DNA from: a virus
Length of the DNA: 40,280 nucleotides
Virus record (IMG/VR): IMGVR_UViG_3300033571_003775
Coordinates: 1 to 40,280 of that record
Strand: one strand, 5' to 3'
Part shown: piece after piece, positions 2,734 to 32,953 of the stretch
Layout of the letters: each line of letters opens with the position of its first letter
Numbering within the stretch: the stretch's first letter is position 1
The notes under the pieces: generated by a model
The model's input: only the letters and a program-made list of their open reading frames with translations
What the model was told of the DNA's origin: nothing
Databases searched by the model: none
Made by a program: the position numbers and the translations under genes

Positions 2734-3861
2734 ATGTCTAAGAAGATTCGCGTCGCTGTTGTCGGCGTTGGTAACTGTCTCTCATCTTTGTATCAGGGAC
2801 TTGAATATTATAAAGATCATGATGAAGACAATATCCCTGGAATTATGTTCTCTCGTATCGGCGGTTATCATCCTTCTGATATTAAAGTTGTAGCAGCATT
2901 CGACGTTGATCGCCGTAAGGTTGGCCGCCCGCTCGGCGAGGCTATTTTCGCGAAGCCGAACTGTGCTCGTGTTTTCTGTGATGATGTTCCGGATGGCCCG
3001 ATTGTTCAGATGGGTCCTGTGCTCGATGGTGTTTCAGAATATATGCAGACTCAGCCTGAGAAGTATGGGTTTCGTGTTTCTAATGAAGAATCGGTTGATG
3101 TTGTCAAGGCTCTGAAGGATTCTGGTGCAGAGATTCTGATCAACTATCTTCCAGTTGGCTCGCAAGAAGCAACAGAGTTCTATGCGCAGTGTGCTATTGA
3201 TGCTGGCGTTTCTTTCCTAAACTGTATCCCTGTCTTTATCGCTTCGGATCCTCTCTGGGAGAAGAAGTTTATTGATGCAGGTCTGCCGATTGTTGGTGAC
3301 GATATGCGCTCGCAGGTTGGTGCTTCTATTCTATCACAGGTTCTTCAGGAGCTCGCCTTTGATCGTGGTGCAGTGGTTGACTTTCACCAGCAGTTGAACG
3401 TCGGTGGTAACTCTGACTTTAATAACATGATGGTTCAGAGTCGTCTTGCTTCTAAGAAGAAGTCAAAGGAGAATGTCATTCGTGCACAGAATGACCTTCG
3501 TAATATTCCTATTGATTCAGAAGCACTCTTTGCTGGTCCTTCAACCTTTATTCCTTATCTGAAAGACAATAAGGTTGCTTATTTGAATCTTCGTCTCCGT
3601 GGTTTTGGTGATGCGCCTATCACTATTGATGCGAAGCTGTCGGTTCAGGATTCGGAGAATTCGGCTGGTGTTGTCATTGATGCTATCCGTTATCTGAAGG
3701 TTGCTAAGGAGATGGGAGTTGTTGGTGCTCTTCGTGGTCCGTCTGCCTGGACTCAGAAGACTCCTCCGCAGCAGATGCAGTATTCAGATGCTAAGGCTGA
3801 ATGTGCTGCATTCGCTGAACGTGATGTTGCTGCTCTAAAGGCTAAGAACTATTATGCATAA
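2734..3861 (+). CDS. myo-inositol-1(3)-phosphate synthase
   Basis: Converts glucose-6-phosphate to inositol-3-phosphate using NAD+. The 375-residue length fits the short archaeal/actinobacterial type. The Rossmann motif VVGVGNC is at residues 10-16. Diagnostic stretches follow: INYLPVGS, FLNCIPVFIA, GDDMRSQVGAS and QLNVGGNSDFNNM, and a conserved lysine-rich segment (SRLASKKKSKENV). The start has a strong AAAGGAG site. The gene has its own promoter and lies between the TET/JBP pair and a HAD phosphatase/P-loop kinase pair, overlapping the HAD gene by 8 nt. The enzyme is unusual in a phage. Its product could feed a phage-specific modification (inference), or alter host inositol metabolism. Confidence 0.93.
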   Translation: MSKKIRVAVVGVGNCLSSLYQGLEYYKDHDEDNIPGIMFSRIGGYHPSDIKVVAAFDVDRRKVGRPLGEAIFAKPNCARVFCDDVPDGPIVQMGPVLDGVSEYMQTQPEKYGFRVSNEESVDVVKALKDSGAEILINYLPVGSQEATEFYAQCAIDAGVSFLNCIPVFIASDPLWEKKFIDAGLPIVGDDMRSQVGASILSQVLQELAFDRGAVVDFHQQLNVGGNSDFNNMMVQSRLASKKKSKENVIRAQNDLRNIPIDSEALFAGPSTFIPYLKDNKVAYLNLRLRGFGDAPITIDAKLSVQDSENSAGVVIDAIRYLKVAKEMGVVGALRGPSAWTQKTPPQQMQYSDAKAECAAFAERDVAALKAKNYYA

Positions 3862-5296: not shown

Positions 5297-6193
5297 ATGG
5301 AACAAATTCAAATCCCGATTGAAGAACTACGTAAGCGTAAATTGTTTATTGCGACCCCGATGTATGGTGGCCAGTGCGCAGGTATGTTTGCTAAGTCAAC
5401 TGCTGACTTGGCTGCTCTTTGTGCTCAGTATGGTATTCCTCTCCAGTTTTATTATCTCTTCAATGAGTCGCTGATCACTCGTGCTCGTAACTATTGTTGT
5501 GATGAGTTCATGCGTTCTGATGCAGAGCATCTTATGTTTATTGACTCCGATATTGGGTTCAATCCTCATGATATTATTGCTATGATGGCTCTTCAGGCTC
5601 AGGATGATAAGTATGATATCATTGGTGGGCCTTATCCTAAGAAGTGTATCTCATGGGAGAAGATTAAGTTGGCAGTAGATAAGGGTATTGCTGACACTGA
5701 TCCTAATGTTCTTGAAAAGTTTGTTGGTGATTATGTGTTCAATCCGAAGGGCGGTCAACAGTCTATCCCATTGAATCAGCCTGTAGAAGTTCTTGAGATT
5801 GGCACAGGGTTCATGATGGTTTCTAAGAAAGCCATGCAGAAGTTCTATGATGATTATAAGGATCGTTATCTTTATACACCGGATCATGTTCGTACTGAAC
5901 ACTTTGATGGTTCTCGTAAGATTCTTATGTTCTTTCAGGCTGAGGTTTGCGAGAAGTCTAATCGTTATCTGTCAGAAGATTATTGGTTCTGTCAGAAGGC
6001 ACAGGATATTGGGCTGAAAACTTGGTTCTGTCCTTGGATGAAGATGCAGCACGTAGGTACTTATATCTTTGGCGGTTCTCTGGCTGATCTTGCATCAATC
6101 GGTGCTTCTGCTACAGCTGATCCATCTACTCTTGGTAATAAGAAGGGTCAAGATAAAAAGTATCATTCAAATCGTAAAATTACTCGTAAGTGA
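5297..6193 (+). CDS. GT-A fold glycosyltransferase, possible DNA base glycosyltransferase
   Basis: A 298-residue family 2-like glycosyltransferase. The N-terminal strand FIATPMYGG begins the nucleotide-binding domain, and FIDSDIGFNP near residue 77 contains the metal-binding DSD. IGTGFMMVSKKAM forms the acceptor side, and SEDYWFCQKAQDIG is the usual ED motif near residue 220. The start follows GAAAGGTAAATATATT, an AT-rich spacing seen at several starts here. Its place at the end of the TET/JBP-kinase cluster suggests it adds a sugar to a hydroxymethylated base. GT-A enzymes do this in other TET-carrying phages, but a cell-surface target is not excluded. Confidence 0.78.
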   Translation: MEQIQIPIEELRKRKLFIATPMYGGQCAGMFAKSTADLAALCAQYGIPLQFYYLFNESLITRARNYCCDEFMRSDAEHLMFIDSDIGFNPHDIIAMMALQAQDDKYDIIGGPYPKKCISWEKIKLAVDKGIADTDPNVLEKFVGDYVFNPKGGQQSIPLNQPVEVLEIGTGFMMVSKKAMQKFYDDYKDRYLYTPDHVRTEHFDGSRKILMFFQAEVCEKSNRYLSEDYWFCQKAQDIGLKTWFCPWMKMQHVGTYIFGGSLADLASIGASATADPSTLGNKKGQDKKYHSNRKITRK

Positions 6194-10648: not shown

Positions 10649-10656
10649 TTAAAGAG

Positions 10657-10681
10657 GGCGGTCTCAATGGCCGCCTTTTTT
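10657..10681 (+). terminator. Rho-independent terminator before the tRNA array
   Basis: GGCGGTC pairs with GGCCGCC around loop TCAAT, followed by six T residues (10676-10681). Confidence 0.85.
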
Positions 10682-10683
10682 AT

Positions 10684-10760
10684 GTGGATGTGCACCGAAT
10701 TGGTTAGGTAGAGGTCTGCAAAACCTTAATATGTGGGTTCGAGTCCCATCATCCACTCCA
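10684..10760 (+). tRNA. tRNA-Cys (GCA)
   Basis: Acceptor GTGGATG/CATCCAC with encoded CCA. The anticodon loop CTGCAAA gives GCA for codon UGC. The T-loop TTCGAGT is standard. First gene of the array, directly after a terminator. Confidence 0.93.
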
Positions 10761-10770
10761 TAACATTTAG

Positions 10771-10866
10771 ATGGGTACAGGCTCGTGCGGGCGAGGATCC
10801 GTAAAAAAGAAGCCCAAACCTTGTGTTACAAAATACCAACGCTCTGGATTGCAAACATCGTTGTGA
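10771..10866 (+). CDS. Possible 31-residue peptide (doubtful)
   Basis: An ATG frame encoding a glycine-, cysteine- and lysine-rich peptide (MGTGSCGRGSVKKKPKPC and more) in the otherwise gene-free stretch 10761-10901. There is no clear ribosome site. The same DNA can form CTCG/CGAG and CAACG/CGTTG hairpins, so an untranslated structured RNA is equally likely. Confidence 0.25.
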   Translation: MGTGSCGRGSVKKKPKPCVTKYQRSGLQTSL

Positions 10867-10901
10867 GTAACATAGTAAACCTGTATCTTTCTAAGTGTTA
10901 T

Positions 10902-11030
10902 ATTATCTTACATCTATGCACCAGCAACAGATTCGCGATATGTTGTGTTGTTGGTCTAAAGGATAGGACGCCTTCGCGTAGGAAAAATGGGTTCGAGTCC
11001 CATACAACAGGTGCATAGATGTAAGATAAT
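10902..11030 (+). ncRNA. tRNA-like element enclosed in a 21-bp hairpin
   Basis: Two perfectly complementary 21-nt arms (10902-10922 and 11010-11030) bracket a tRNA-like core at about 10945-11011. The core has a 6-bp acceptor-like pairing (TGTTGT with ACAACA), a D-arm (GTCT/GGAC) and a perfect T-arm (ATGGG, TTCGAGT, CCCAT). The anticodon arm is cut to about 3 bp with a 6-nt loop (TCGCGT), and there is no CCA. The structure is read directly from the sequence. It cannot decode as a normal tRNA, so a decoy, a processing signal or a decayed tRNA are options. Confidence 0.6.
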
Positions 11031-11033
11031 TAT

Positions 11034-11107
11034 TGTCCCTTAGCTCAAAGGTAGAGCAATGTGCTGATAACACATAGACACTGGATCGTTACCAGTAGGG
11101 ACAACCA
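11034..11107 (+). tRNA. tRNA-Ile (GAT)
   Basis: Acceptor TGTCCCT/AGGGACA, A73, encoded CCA. Anticodon loop CTGATAA gives GAU for AUC/AUU. The T-loop reads ATCGTTA instead of the usual TTCRANY, a variant shared with the Asp and Tyr tRNAs here. Confidence 0.9.
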
Positions 11108-11700: not shown

Positions 11701-11946
11701 ATGATCGGAGAAGTAAAGATTATCGCCTTCGATAAACAAATAAGAGGTTTTCTGGATTGCGATGGCAGAGCAGTTTATATTTCTGACTATCCTGGATTGT
11801 TCGATCTATTAGGACATAGATTTGGAGACACTGCTCCAGATAAAATGTTTTATTTACCCAATCTTCCCGTTGTGTGGGATGGATTAAAGGCAGTCATTCA
11901 AGCAGAAGGCGATGCTCCTAAGATAGTAAAAGGATTGAAAAAATGA
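11701..11946 (+). CDS. Mini tail-collar-domain protein 1
   Basis: An 81-residue protein that is little more than one phage tail-collar repeat: IGEVKIIAFD, then FLDCDGRAVYISDYPGLFDL and a short FYLPNLP strand, matching the usual pattern G..CDG..L....Y..LF..LG..FG....F.LP. Collar domains normally end long tail fibres, so free-standing copies inside a tRNA array are odd. GAGGATATCT precedes the ATG. It overlaps its paralogue by 4 nt. Confidence 0.75.
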   Translation: MIGEVKIIAFDKQIRGFLDCDGRAVYISDYPGLFDLLGHRFGDTAPDKMFYLPNLPVVWDGLKAVIQAEGDAPKIVKGLKK

Positions 11947-12737: not shown

Positions 12738-12746
12738 TAAGAATAT

Positions 12747-12836
12747 GGAGTGCGTGTCCAGCCGGGGATGCTGGCACCGTCTTGAAAACGGTAGGAGCCG
12801 AAAGGCCAGGGGTTCGATTCCGCCACCACTCCGCCA
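12747..12836 (+). tRNA. tRNA-Ser (TGA), imperfect T-stem
   Basis: Class II with acceptor GGAGTGC and 3' strand CCACTCC (last pair C-C mismatched), G73, CCA encoded. Anticodon loop CTTGAAA gives UGA for UCA. The T-stem AGGGG/CCGCC has two mismatches and an extra A follows, so it may be weak or edited. Confidence 0.8.
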
Positions 12837-12847
12837 ATAAATAGTAT

Positions 12848-12974: not shown

Positions 12975-12978
12975 ATTC

Positions 12979-13053
12979 GCTGATAGGTCGGCAAGATGTC
13001 GAGGCGCTTTCATACGGCGTTATAGGTTGGTTTGATTCCAACTATCAGCTCCA
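12979..13053 (+). tRNA. tRNA with CAT anticodon (Met or Ile2), copy 1
   Basis: Acceptor GCTGATA/TATCAGC, T73, CCA encoded. Anticodon loop TTCATAC gives CAU. G1-C72 argues against an initiator tRNA. The T-loop TTTGATT has U56. Elongator Met and lysidine-modified Ile2 cannot be told apart here. Confidence 0.82.
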
Positions 13054-13626: not shown

Positions 13627-14247
13627 ATGAATGATAAAGTAATTGGATTATTTCCTGAACCTGTAATGATAACCTCTATTGAAAGAGACTTTACCGAAGA
13701 AGAAAAGAAATATGTAGAATCTTGTAGTCGTAATCTGATGAAGAATCATTTAAATTATTCTTCTCAAGAAGTTCATGTTCTTGAACATCCAGCGATGAAA
13801 AGTATAAATAAGTTTATCTTAGATAATGTGGTTGAATTTATAGAATACACTGAAGATCCTATTTACGATCATAAATATTTTATCACTACTTCTTGGTTCA
13901 ATTATACAAATCCTGGTCAAGGTCATCATGAACATGACCACAAAAACAGTTATGTAAGTGGTGTATTGTATTTGAGTGCTAATAGAAATACGGATAAGAT
14001 TATTTTTTCTAATCCTAAAAAAAGATTTCTTGAAGTCGAAACTAAAAAGTATGGCGAATATAATTCGAAAGATTGGGAGTTTAAAGTAGGATCAGGAGAT
14101 TTGGTTATCTTTAGATCTTATCTATCTCATAGAGTACCACAAACGAACAGGTTTGATTCACATACTAGAATAAGTCTTTCTTTTAATACGTTCCTAAAAG
14201 GAAACATTGGAGATCCTTATAGGTGTTCTGACTTAGAAAAAAGATAG
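13627..14247 (+). CDS. 2OG-Fe(II) oxygenase-like protein
   Basis: A 206-residue protein with the layout of the putative 2OG-Fe(II) oxygenase group common in T4-like phages. The metal-binding GQGHHEHDH is followed by SYVSGVLYLS, then VIFRSYLSHRVPQ with the distal histidine, and TRISLSFN with the 2-oxoglutarate-binding arginine. The substrate is unknown (protein, nucleic acid or small molecule). No strong ribosome site is seen. It lies 16 nt after the membrane-protein gene. Confidence 0.8.
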   Translation: MNDKVIGLFPEPVMITSIERDFTEEEKKYVESCSRNLMKNHLNYSSQEVHVLEHPAMKSINKFILDNVVEFIEYTEDPIYDHKYFITTSWFNYTNPGQGHHEHDHKNSYVSGVLYLSANRNTDKIIFSNPKKRFLEVETKKYGEYNSKDWEFKVGSGDLVIFRSYLSHRVPQTNRFDSHTRISLSFNTFLKGNIGDPYRCSDLEKR

Positions 14248-14254
14248 AGTTTAT

Positions 14255-14330
14255 GCGAGATTAGCTCAGTTGGGAGAGCGTCTGTTTTACACGCAGAATG
14301 TCGGCAGTTCGATCCTGTCATCTCGCACCA
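14255..14330 (+). tRNA. tRNA-Val (TAC)
   Basis: Acceptor GCGAGAT/ATCTCGC, A73, CCA encoded. Anticodon loop TTTACAC gives UAC. Confidence 0.93.
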
Positions 14331-14476: not shown

Positions 14477-14573
14477 AGGGGTAGAGGGATTGTAGGTAGA
14501 CCTGTAAGAAAACCGTTGCGACGAGTTATGACTGGGTTGTAACCTTCATAGATTTAATGCTCGTATCGTCTAT

Positions 14574-14676
14574 TGGTCAGTGACGAAATAGTAGACGTGG
14601 CGCCGACACAAGGCGCTGTTGTCTTGAGTCCGGATAAAAAGACAGCGTGTAGGTGCAAATCCTACCTGGCCAACCA
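14574..14676 (+). tRNA. Aberrant class II tRNA with anticodon-position CAC and no U33
   Basis: Acceptor TGGTCAG/CTGGCCA, A73 and CCA, with a perfect T-arm (GTAGG, TGCAAAT, CCTAC). The D-arm contains AAATAGTAGACG as in leucine tRNAs. The anticodon stem GCGCC/GGCGC closes loop GACACAA, so position 33 is A instead of the near-universal U and the triplet is CAC. The variable arm is very long (GTTGTC/GACAGC with a 17-nt loop), giving 103 nt in total. It may not decode. Confidence 0.6.
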
Positions 14677-14682
14677 TATTAT

Positions 14683-15583: not shown

Positions 15584-15587
15584 ATAT

Positions 15588-15672
15588 GGGAGGCTATACG
15601 GCTAAGGACGCCGAGCGGTCTGTAAAACCGAGGTCTATGACTGGCTGGGATCGTTACCCAGGTCTCCCACCA
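15588..15672 (+). tRNA. tRNA-Tyr (GTA)
   Basis: Class II tRNA, acceptor GGGAGGC/GTCTCCC, A73, CCA encoded. Anticodon loop CTGTAAA gives GUA. Short extra arm. T-loop is the variant ATCGTTA. Confidence 0.9.
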
Positions 15673-15673
15673 T

Positions 15674-16106: not shown

Positions 16107-16124
16107 TATAAAGGAGTAACTGTA

Positions 16125-16436
16125 ATGAGAAAGATTCTTCTCGCATCAGCTTTAGTTATTAGTGTATCCACGCCTTCTTATGCATGGTGGGATTCTTATG
16201 GCGGTTTCACATGTGGTTATCTCGATCCGTTGACATCGGTTCTTGATTCTATATTTGGACCTCCTTGTCCTCCTCCGCAGCCTGTGATAGTTGAGCAGCC
16301 AGTAGCAGTTCCTGTTCCTGTTCGTCCTGCTCCTCCAGCTAAATATGTTGTGCCTGGGCCAATCTATGATTGCCCGATGCGTCCTGTTCCTTATCCATTC
16401 TCTCCGACTGGATTTCAGTACGTACCTAATTGTTAA
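16125..16436 (+). CDS. Secreted proline-rich protein
   Basis: 103 residues with a signal peptide ending at SYA (about residue 20), then WWDSYGG, a CPPP stretch and Pro/Val repeats (VAVPVPVRPAPP). Three to four cysteines could form disulfides in the periplasm. It has its own promoter and a strong AAAGGAG site. Similar in style to the secreted proteins at 12351 and 18252, though not clearly homologous. A periplasmic or surface role during infection is inferred. Confidence 0.72.
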   Translation: MRKILLASALVISVSTPSYAWWDSYGGFTCGYLDPLTSVLDSIFGPPCPPPQPVIVEQPVAVPVPVRPAPPAKYVVPGPIYDCPMRPVPYPFSPTGFQYVPNC

Positions 16437-18659: not shown

Positions 18660-20114
18660 ATGATGAAACTTTTGTCTGTTGCCTACTCTTGTCATGACAC
18701 AAACTATACTTATTATGATGGTGAAACTTTACAATATTTTAAGTTAGAAAGACATAAACAGGAAAAGCATGCATGTGCTGTTGAACCAACAGAATGGAGA
18801 GAATGGGGTATTGAACCGGATGCTATATGTTTTGATATAACTATTACTGATTTTGAACACGCAAAAAGAAATATTCTTAATACGTTTCCGCTTTTATCAA
18901 TTATTTGTAATGCGTATAATACATTCAATGAAGAAACAAAAAACTTATTAGAACAATTGTTTAAAGGTTCTATAAACTATTTTAAGGCAACGGAAGATTT
19001 AAAAAGATTATTTGGGGCAACTATAGAAGAAGTCTGGATAATCGGTCATCATTATTCTCATTCTCTTTCAGGATGGATGTTGTGTAAAGATCCAGACGTT
19101 AGTATAGTTATCGACGGCGTCGGTGATAAAGATAGATCAATTAGTATATACAATAAAGATTCTTTAATATATTCTGAAGATTTTGAAAACTCTATAGGGA
19201 TGGCTTATCTAGTAGCTGCGTATAAATGTGGTATACAAGCAAGTCATCCAATGGATGTTTCTGGTAAACTTATGGGATTTCAGTCTTATGGCAATGTTTG
19301 CGAAAACCCAGTATCTAATAAAGATATAGCAGCATCAACACATTATTCTCTTGGTCAAAGGGTTATGAAGGTATTTGAGAAATACGCATCTCCTGATGAT
19401 GTTATCTATTATAGTGGTGGTGTTGGTCAAAACGTATTATGGAATACAGAACTACGAAACAAATACCCTAATATAGTCATCGCTCCTCATTGCGCAGATG
19501 ATGGGTTAAGTCTAGGAGGCATAGAGTTTCTTAGAAGACAATATGACCTTGATCCTTTTACATTAGAAAACTTCCCATACATTCAATCAGATATATCTGT
19601 ACCAGAACCTTCTAATGAGACGATTAGAAGAACGGCTGAGTTATTGGCTGATGGTAAGATAGTTGCCTGGTATCAAGGCAACGGTGAGATCGGACCAAGA
19701 GCATTAGGTAACAGATCTATTCTAATGGATCCGAGGATCGAGAATGGAAGGGATATTATCAATAAGATAAAGAAAAGAGAATATTATAGACCATTTGGTG
19801 CTTCTGTTTTAGCTGAACATTGTGATACTAAAGATGATTATATGTTATTTGTTACTAAACAGTATTCTCAATATCCAGCAATCACACATATCGATGGTAC
19901 TTGTAGATTACAGACTGTTAGCAAAGAAGGATCATTTAGAAGATTACTTGAAGAGTTCTATTCAATAACAAAATGCCCCGTATTATTGAATACCAGCCTA
20001 AACATTGCAGGAAAGCCAATAGCAGCTTATCCAGATAATGCTAGAGAGTTATTCAATAATACGGGGATTGATGTTTTAGTTATTGGAGATGAGTTAGTCT
20101 GTAAAGATTTCTAA
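18660..20114 (+). CDS. NodU/CmcH-type carbamoyltransferase
   Basis: Transfers the carbamoyl group of carbamoyl phosphate, through carbamoyl-AMP, to a hydroxyl. The 484-residue protein has the Kae1-like N-terminal domain with GHHYSHSLSG (metal-binding histidines, near residue 123) and VIDGVGD. YSGGVGQNV follows, and the C-terminal YrdC-like domain has GNGEIGPRALGNRSIL and CPVLLNTSLNIAGKP. It is shorter than NodU/CmcH (about 560). GGAGATATG gives the start; the ATG at 18663 is an alternative. Phage members of this family are known to act on 5-hydroxymethylcytosine in DNA, which fits the TET/JBP gene in this window (inference). The 3' end overlaps the convergent nuclease gene by 21 nt. Confidence 0.93.
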   Translation: MMKLLSVAYSCHDTNYTYYDGETLQYFKLERHKQEKHACAVEPTEWREWGIEPDAICFDITITDFEHAKRNILNTFPLLSIICNAYNTFNEETKNLLEQLFKGSINYFKATEDLKRLFGATIEEVWIIGHHYSHSLSGWMLCKDPDVSIVIDGVGDKDRSISIYNKDSLIYSEDFENSIGMAYLVAAYKCGIQASHPMDVSGKLMGFQSYGNVCENPVSNKDIAASTHYSLGQRVMKVFEKYASPDDVIYYSGGVGQNVLWNTELRNKYPNIVIAPHCADDGLSLGGIEFLRRQYDLDPFTLENFPYIQSDISVPEPSNETIRRTAELLADGKIVAWYQGNGEIGPRALGNRSILMDPRIENGRDIINKIKKREYYRPFGASVLAEHCDTKDDYMLFVTKQYSQYPAITHIDGTCRLQTVSKEGSFRRLLEEFYSITKCPVLLNTSLNIAGKPIAAYPDNARELFNNTGIDVLVIGDELVCKDF

Positions 20115-30248: not shown

Positions 30249-31082
30249 TCACTTTTGTTTGACAACATAGTAAGTGTTACCTCCGTCCCACATATCAAGA
30301 ACATTACTGACTAGAGGAATGGTTTCTACTTGCTTATTTTTGAAAAAATTCTGAAAATAATCGTTGTTTACTTCTTGACCGAAGATAGCTGACTGAGAAA
30401 GTATAAGCCAGTTCTTAGATTTATCAATCTTCGGCATTAGCTGATTACGATATTCAACAGGAGTCTCGGAAAGAGACCAAGTAGCAATAACAAGATCAGC
30501 GTGCTTTACATTATCATCCTCAAAAGACCATTTAGGTCTAATATCTTGTTTACCTAGATAATACTCCTGAAGAGGTTGAGTCTCAGGAATATCAACGATA
30601 GTGTATTCTCCTTCAAATCCCAGAGCATGAACCACAGAACACATATCTCCGTAACCAGCACCAATCTCAACGATTGATTTATAGTTTTTCAGTTCATGAA
30701 CAAATCCAGTAATACAAAGATGCGCGACATCCTGAATACGCTGCATAGAAGTATCAAAGTCCGAAGCTACTCGGAGCATTTCTCTTATATGTTCAGGAGC
30801 ACCGATCCAGTTTTCCTGAAGAGCTTCAGCTATCTCTGGGTCTCGTGCAGCATGATAGAACGCCTCACCAATAAAGCGAGACGTTCTGAATTGAGTAATG
30901 AATGGAACATTCCAACAAGAAGCCCATAGACGGAATCTTGGTAAAGGCAAATGCGCACAATCATATTTGAAAACTTCTCGCATTGTAGGCCAATAATTTT
31001 CATCATTGGTTTTCTTTGCAGAAATCATTTTTTGAGAATTTTCAGATTCAAAATTATAATCAGACCATATCAAATCAACCAT
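30249..31082 (-). CDS. Putative sugar O-methyltransferase
   Basis: 277 residues. A Rossmann core starts at SIVEIGAGYGDMCSVVHALG (SAM-binding glycine loop, residue about 137), followed by YTIVDIPE, VIATWSLSE and NWLILSQS. This matches the putative sugar O-methyltransferase family in polysaccharide clusters. It is first in the heptose operon, one nucleotide ahead of the nucleotidyltransferase ATG. It would methylate the heptose or another sugar. Confidence 0.78.
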   Translation of the reverse strand: MVDLIWSDYNFESENSQKMISAKKTNDENYWPTMREVFKYDCAHLPLPRFRLWASCWNVPFITQFRTSRFIGEAFYHAARDPEIAEALQENWIGAPEHIREMLRVASDFDTSMQRIQDVAHLCITGFVHELKNYKSIVEIGAGYGDMCSVVHALGFEGEYTIVDIPETQPLQEYYLGKQDIRPKWSFEDDNVKHADLVIATWSLSETPVEYRNQLMPKIDKSKNWLILSQSAIFGQEVNNDYFQNFFKNKQVETIPLVSNVLDMWDGGNTYYVVKQK

Positions 31083-32245: not shown

Positions 32246-32953
32246 CTCCTGATCCTTTAAAGACTTTTCGTATTTTGTCATCTTATCAAGATATCCTCTA
32301 TTACGAAGTTCTTTAAATACCAGATTCTCTCTTCCAAACTCTCCATACTTTTGTATAGAGGCAGTTCTCATATCCTTAAATCTTTTCTTTAGATTTTCAA
32401 TGGGAGCATCTCCCATTTTGTTTTTGATCATGTGATCAATAGCATGCATAAAATGTTTTACTTTTTGTTTTAAGATAGGATCGTTTTTAAAATCGTATCT
32501 TGTTTTAATAGGTCTCTGAACCCAGTCATTCTTCATGAGCGAATATACGCCCTGATATTTTGGATATTTAATAGACTCGTCTTGAGCATAGGGTTCAAGA
32601 GGATAACCATATACTGTCACGTTATGTGTTAATGTCCAGAGAGATTTTTTATCTTGAAGATATTCTTCTACAAAAGCCGGATTACTAAATAACTGGCTTC
32701 TTTTGATAATAACGTGAACATCAATATCAGATTTACCTGTATAGTTAAAATTGGCATTACCACCAGTCATAACTATATCTTGTATCATACTTTTAGGAAT
32801 CTTAGCAAACTGCGCCCAGGTTTCACCAAAACGAATAAGAGCCTTACGGACTTCTGGTTTTAGCTTTTCACCTATCCATAATTCTGGATTCAATTCGTTA
32901 TGGTACTGAAGACTTATTTTTAATTCTTCTAGATACTCTGTAAATCTCTGCAT
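32228..32953 (-). CDS. Nucleotidyltransferase-fold protein
   Basis: 241 residues. MTGGNANFNYTGKSDIDVHV contains the G-G/N and DxD motif of the DNA polymerase beta-like nucleotidyltransferases (near residue 75). The rest is helical and basic. Members of this type occur in T4-like phages without a known target; tRNA or antibiotic nucleotidylation and self-defence roles are possible. The promoter of the next gene lies in its last codons. Confidence 0.8.
   Translation of the reverse strand: MQRFTEYLEELKISLQYHNELNPELWIGEKLKPEVRKALIRFGETWAQFAKIPKSMIQDIVMTGGNANFNYTGKSDIDVHVIIKRSQLFSNPAFVEEYLQDKKSLWTLTHNVTVYGYPLEPYAQDESIKYPKYQGVYSLMKNDWVQRPIKTRYDFKNDPILKQKVKHFMHAIDHMIKNKMGDAPIENLKKRFKDMRTASIQKYGEFGRENLVFKELRNRGYLDKMTKYEKSLKDQELTLRK

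Follow-up and report, generated by a model that had tools for sequence, protein, structure and literature searches.

The locus at positions 10902–11030 raises the question of what a tRNA-like core held between two perfectly complementary arms might be: a tRNA gene, the remains of one, a DNA element or an RNA of another kind. The window, i.e., the whole stretch of 40,280 nucleotides (40 kb) that was analyzed, belongs to a T4-like freshwater (lake) phage with genes for a clamp loader, PhoH and ribonucleotide reductase, and ARAGORN found a large tRNA array in it. Within this array, the interval between tRNA-Cys (GCA, 10684–10760) and tRNA-Ile (GAT, 11034–11107) is occupied by two units closed by long inverted repeats, here called bead 1 (10761–10901), which abuts tRNA-Cys directly, and bead 2 (10902–11030), the element in question, which lies directly 5′ of tRNA-Ile. 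Both tRNA genes and all parts of the two beads are on the plus strand. No evident promoter was seen at the head of the array, and a strong terminator-like hairpin with a T-run (10650–10683) ends right at tRNA-Cys. Genes missed by ARAGORN in the window are tRNA-Tyr (GTA, 15584–15673), tRNA-Ser (TGA, approximately 12746–12837) and a tRNA-like gene at 12978–13052. A 205-nt structured spacer (14478–14682) with a T-arm-like hairpin (GTAGGTGCAAATCCTAC) and a CCA end may represent either one more tRNA-like RNA or an unusual tRNA with long arms, and a perfect 17-bp hairpin with a 57-nt loop (19976–20066) lies close to where two genes converge.

The two 21-nt arms of bead 2 (10902–10922 and 11010–11030) are complementary at 21 of 21 positions across 87 nt, as a preliminary description had stated. 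The arm sequence occurs only once in the window, with 0 matches expected in shuffled sequences even when 3 mismatches are allowed, and an exact search of viral contigs for it gave no match. The folding energy of the region was −51.9 kcal/mol, compared with −28.9 kcal/mol in shuffles (z = −6.5). The arms form a 21-bp closing stalk (P1, the clamp), whose 3′ strand ends 3 nt before tRNA-Ile. The preliminary description overlooked both the abutting clamp of bead 1 and a second hairpin, P2 (10924–10946), which is not a linker and makes the fold a three-way junction. P2 has the stem GCAACA/TGTTGT (10924–10929 with 10941–10946) and the loop GATTCGCGATA (10930–10940). It is followed by an acceptor-like stem, GTTGT (10947–10951) paired with ACAAC (11004–11008), that encloses a D-arm (10954–10969; GTCT-AAAGGATA-GGAC, 4 bp including one U·G, with a conserved GG in the loop), an anticodon-like mini hairpin (10971–10982; CCT-TCGCGT-AGG) and a T-arm of 5 bp (10987–11003; ATGGG-TTCGAGT-CCCAT). 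The D-arm, T-arm, short anticodon arm and lack of CCA are as originally described. Of the 6-bp acceptor in that account, 5 bp are conserved; the sixth pair forms in the window, is missing from some relatives and would claim one base of P2.

The core (10945–11011) scored 35.7 bits against the Rfam tRNA model, for which the cut-off is 29 bits, and ARAGORN calls no tRNA there. The elbow is that of a tRNA, since the GG of the D-loop and the TTCGA of the T-loop, as well as columns of the D-arm, are invariant in the six-sequence alignment described below. Other parts of a functional tRNA are missing. Instead of a 7-bp acceptor and a 5-bp anticodon stem with a free 7-nt loop, bead 2 has a conserved acceptor of 5 bp and an anticodon-like stem of 3 bp, and five bases of its 6-nt loop (10974–10978) pair with CGCGA (10934–10938) inside the P2 loop. 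Instead of ending in CCA or a free 3′ end, the 3′ acceptor strand continues through a single A into the stalk, and CCA was found in 0 members of the same type. Hence, decoding is not expected because the anticodon-like loop is locked by kissing with the P2 loop, and charging is not expected because CCA is absent; bead 2 is not a tRNA gene. The nested tRNA-like fold lies 1.5 kcal/mol above the minimum free energy, a difference that leaves the kissing pairs out of account. A role as stand-in for a missing tRNA was rejected, as the window has its own tRNA-Tyr and tRNA-Ser and the core offers no free anticodon.

Loci retrieved through two neighboring genes were searched by sensitive blastn, which found relatives of bead 2 in other contigs; a pattern scan added more, and a structural scan that gave no hits in the control confirmed them. 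Clear members of the window's type (W-type) are the window itself, L087 (identical to L010), L072/L160 and L162, L060/L161, and L271. In L087, too, the element stands between tRNA-Cys and tRNA-Ile, and hardly any letter of its arms is that of the window. When six sequences were aligned, all followed one layout: P1 and a single A lead into P2, which is joined without a linker to the 5-bp acceptor; this acceptor encloses the D-arm, the mini anticodon arm and the T-arm and is separated from the 3′ strand of the stalk by one A (AC in L060). Changes on both sides of a pair were seen at 25 of 44 pairs and in 49 cells, values that 0 of 500 shuffles reached in either measure; the six rows represent four lineages, and shared descent inflates the cell counts, with the number of double-change pairs being less sensitive to it. 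Overall, 93.2% of cells were paired, and this fell to 37–57% when the partner was slid by 1–3 columns. The double changes included 15 of the 21 pairs of P1 and all 6 pairs of P2. The acceptor and the T-arm were paired in 100% of cells across the six sequences, the T-arm with a compensatory change in L072/L162. L271 was retrieved by a model built without it (E ~1e-14), and its stalk is paired at 20 of 21 positions in new letters. The covariation check proposed in the preliminary description therefore strongly favors its idea of a structured RNA distinct from a tRNA gene. Judged from these comparisons, bead 2 is almost certainly a conserved structured RNA, neither a chance repeat nor a decaying tRNA, and the substitution pattern shows P1, P2, the acceptor, the T-arm and the kissing pairs to be under selection as RNA.

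The perfection of the hairpin, which had first drawn attention, holds for the window but is exceptional: column 12 of the alignment, within the stalk, is a pair in the window only and a mismatch in the five other sequences. The processing signal may differ in the window, given that its stalk is perfect where relatives keep one mismatch. The preliminary description had named the loss of the hairpin and core among close relatives as evidence against the element. The whole unit is indeed absent from several of them, with neither bead 1 nor bead 2 at an empty Cys–Ile site in the close relatives L014 and L022, but hairpin and core are both kept wherever the W-type unit is present. In the cultured cyanophage BUCT-ZZ01 (L001), which infects Synechococcus elongatus PCC 7942, the W-type unit (125407–125594 of its record) retains the core and a clamp of 21 pairs together with a larger and different 5′ domain, and kissing pairs were not clearly seen in it. 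Seven further loci (L064, L158, L163, L166, L168, L262 and L274) form a subtype II in which the stalk has only approximately 5–8 bp, the anticodon-like stem is longer and kissing pairs were not evident; the long stalk and the kissing interaction are therefore not universal. Several candidates were rejected as members: the match in Salicola SCTP-2 (H55) is an ordinary tRNA-Glu with CCA, L165/L167 and L285 are tRNA-like only, without a stalk, L264 is an ordinary tRNA-Arg, no stalk was seen at the 'pseudo tRNA' of YerA41 (L171), and Variovorax V45v66 gave a weak match and has tRNAs without clamps.

The complementarity between the anticodon-like loop and the P2 loop recurs in the relatives, where it covaries in L087, L060 and L271. 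The respective loop segments are UCGCG/CGCGA in the window, UCGCGU/GCGCGA in L072, UUCGCG/CGCGAA in L060, UGGCAG/CUGCCA in L087 and UACCC/GGGUA in L271. The summed kissing score of these five members, with loop boundaries set by eye, was 74, compared with a mean of 41 and a maximum of 69 in 20,000 shuffles of both loops. In a cross table, the loops of L087 and L271 matched their own partners only, whereas the three CGCG types also matched each other. To our knowledge, locking of the anticodon by a kissing hairpin of the same RNA has not been described for any tRNA mimic.

Bead 2 is not the only clamped unit. In bead 1, a 98-nt unrelated structured insert is enclosed by the stalk ATAACATTTAGATGGGTACAGG / CCTGTATCTTTCTAAGTGTTAT, in which 21 of 22 positions are paired and one is U·U. 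It abuts bead 2 directly, has no Rfam match, shows compensatory changes at 14 pairs among 8 aligned sequences, and is found at the same tRNA-Cys/tRNA-Ile site in many relatives. The two beads are the only clamps of such strength in the tRNA array of the window. In other contigs, one recurrent stalk (RTTRTCTCTTCAYRGATAC / GTATCTTTGTAGAGATAA) closes 71 units, arranged in tandem runs of up to three, with inserts that fall into 17 similarity clusters; in 68 of 69 units, a fixed position of this stalk is a pyrimidine·U mismatch. The mismatch-free element of the window is unusual. Among 287 loci, 106 of 143 distinct clamps lay within 500 nt of a tRNA, a zone that accounts for 25% of bases, although this proximity is partly due to how the loci were chosen. 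The tRNA region of BUCT-ZZ01 has several clamps, one of which encloses a genuine tRNA-His (5322–5421), and no clamp was found in the tRNA array of DLP6. Clamps also surround tRNA-His-like cores without CCA in L122 (6655–6773) and L126 (12032–12150). Tandem clamped units were observed in L144 (3757–4244), L133 (11853–12280) and L215 (7849–8123). Neighboring stalks in tandem units can pair with each other via a hairpin capped by UUCG or GAAA, and alternative folds are therefore possible in them. An rRNA boxA-like leader (CGCTCTTTGACATTGTTGGAAA) lies just 5′ of the first clamped unit in L144 (approximately 3720–3745) and L133 (approximately 11815–11840). The array of another relative, L145, contains tRNAs with the stop anticodons TTA and CTA (14222–14296 and 16119–16193), possibly suppressor tRNAs or signs of an altered code.

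How such a unit might be processed is suggested by phage T5. RNase III cuts leave a 2-nt 3′ overhang. In the T5 record (AY543070, L289), the GenBank annotation of the tRNA cluster includes stable RNAs without an assigned function, and we found RNAIII (30284–30389) to lie inside a clamp of 20/20 pairs and RNAIV (32838–32940) inside one of 21/22 pairs. The annotated 5′ end of RNAIII (30389, nt 1) pairs with 30286 (nt 104 of 106), which leaves a 2-nt 3′ overhang up to the 3′ end at 30284; the annotated 5′ end of RNAIV pairs with nt 102 of 103, leaving 1 nt. The earlier proposal that bead 2 is an RNase III substrate thus gains indirect support by analogy, since both T5 RNAs have their annotated ends within comparable clamps, with overhangs resembling those made by RNase III. 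RNAIII itself was too conserved for covariation analysis, with nearly all of 294 records at ≥95% identity. Like these two RNAs, bead 2 is a small unit packed against tRNA genes and enclosed by a clamp of at least 20 bp (20–22 bp in T5). It differs in that the T5 inserts are unrelated to it, are not tRNA-like and are annotated as stable RNAs, whereas the stability of bead 2 is a prediction.

The tRNA likeness has its own parallels. T4 rnaC and rnaD (species 1 and 2) are made late in infection and have no known function (PMC9697503). Together with T5 RNA1 and RNA2, which are annotated as tRNA-like, they resemble bead 2 as RNAs of tRNA clusters, in their case stable ones; rnaC, RNA1 and RNA2 also share its tRNA likeness, and the 3′ end of rnaC is a T-arm without CCA. 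No clamp was found in the T4 tRNA region, rnaC included, and a search with query R1 gave no match to rnaC, rnaD, RNA1 or RNA2 and a weak match to the T4 tRNA-Arg region. The judgment that this is not a known tRNA gene layout was hence only partly right, since T5 RNAIII and RNAIV share the clamp and rnaC, RNA1 and RNA2 the tRNA likeness. GOLLD and ROOL are ornate phage RNAs that occur near tRNA islands and also contain kissing loops (PMC12286853). Both are far larger than bead 2, in which no Rfam covariance match to either was found. Apart from the tRNA match, bead 2 is in no existing Rfam family. A non-phage parallel is offered by rRNA precursors, in which the flanks of a structured RNA pair into a long stem, RNase III cuts this stem and the RNA is released; the long flanking stem is shared with bead 2, and the cargo is much larger.

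Taken as a whole, we read bead 2 as a stable RNA that mimics a tRNA, is released from the tRNA-array transcript by RNase III cleavage of the stalk and probably competes for tRNA-binding enzymes; we give this reading a probability of roughly 55%. A small, stable structured RNA would be transcribed as part of the presumed array transcript, with P1 closing a three-way junction of the P2 hairpin and the tRNA-like domain with its true elbow and 5-bp acceptor. The P2 loop would lock the six-base anticodon-like loop and so hide the false anticodon. The stalk, two helical turns long, would serve as a processing handle at which RNase III frees the RNA from its tRNA neighbors, as in rRNA precursor stems, and the enclosed RNA would be the product. 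By analogy with T5, excision at the stalk appears probable. Once freed, the mimic could occupy an enzyme that recognizes tRNA elbows, and its likeliest use would be to blunt a tRNA-cleaving host defense or to bias host tRNA maturation. This decoy-type function is the weakest step, and we propose it tentatively.

The most serious competitor, though clearly the less favored, holds that bead 2 is only a spacer for processing or stability: the clamp would recruit RNase III, and the tRNA-like core RNase P, while the excised RNA is inert. The beads often lie 0–6 nt from tRNA ends, the stalk has the length that RNase III needs, and widely varying inserts stand behind one recurrent stalk as if the insert were irrelevant. 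A plain hairpin would, however, suffice for such a task, yet compensatory changes have preserved P2, the elbow and the kissing loops, and insert families such as bead 1 and type A (21 members) are conserved in sequence and structure.

The plan of a long end-to-end stem with a tRNA-like domain beyond it is also that of bacterial Y RNAs (PMC7790460, PMC4726728), and bead 2 could in principle be a YrlA-like RNA whose stalk binds a Ro60/Rsr protein and whose tRNA-like domain is the effector. We regard this as improbable. Among 35 phage records, many of which are fragmentary, no TROVE/Ro60/Rsr protein was found, though an Rsr of the host may be the partner; at the element, YrlA (RF02553) gave no match with an E-value of 10 or less; and the stalk of the window is without bulges of the type known from vertebrate Ro binding (PMC4726728).

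Even less probable is a mobile DNA cassette, MITE- or attC-like, with inverted repeats that act as DNA. Terminal inverted repeats, an uneven distribution in which L014 and L022 have the site without the unit, and the single stalk sequence common to 17 insert clusters would fit such a cassette. Against this, the empty site has no target duplication, W-type copies are all on the tRNA strand, homologous repeats diverge by compensatory change instead of being conserved, and the G·U pairs and the conserved pyrimidine·U mismatch make sense only in RNA. The replication element considered in the preliminary description is likewise unsupported, given the conservation at the RNA level (G·U pairs, elbow and kissing loops), the tRNA strand and the packing between tRNA genes. 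Exchange of cassettes by recombination between stalks may nonetheless occur.

Finally, a degenerate Glu/Gln/Asp-like tRNA gene trapped between inverted repeats, which the ordinary look of the D-arm (GTCTAANGGATAGGA) and T-arm and the Rfam score above cut-off might suggest, is very improbable, as 25 compensatory pairs and maintained kissing loops imply purifying selection on structure, and stalks of 21 bp rewritten in several lineages are not what drift would produce.

The reading of bead 2 as a stalk-released tRNA mimic has consequences beyond this locus. A stalk with an exchangeable insert would provide a common processing rule for stable RNAs of T4 and T5 that are still listed as of unknown function, and the architecture extends such RNAs to many uncultured phages and one cultured cyanophage. 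More speculatively, phage tRNA arrays might be modular strings of clamped RNA cassettes, in which exchangeable structured inserts on two-turn stalks, often with a conserved mismatch, are strung head to tail with tRNAs, released by one enzyme and swapped whole, and which, with tRNA mimics of self-locked anticodon among them, could amount to an arsenal of RNA decoys. A self-locked tRNA mimic would bear on how phages meet tRNA-cleaving defenses.
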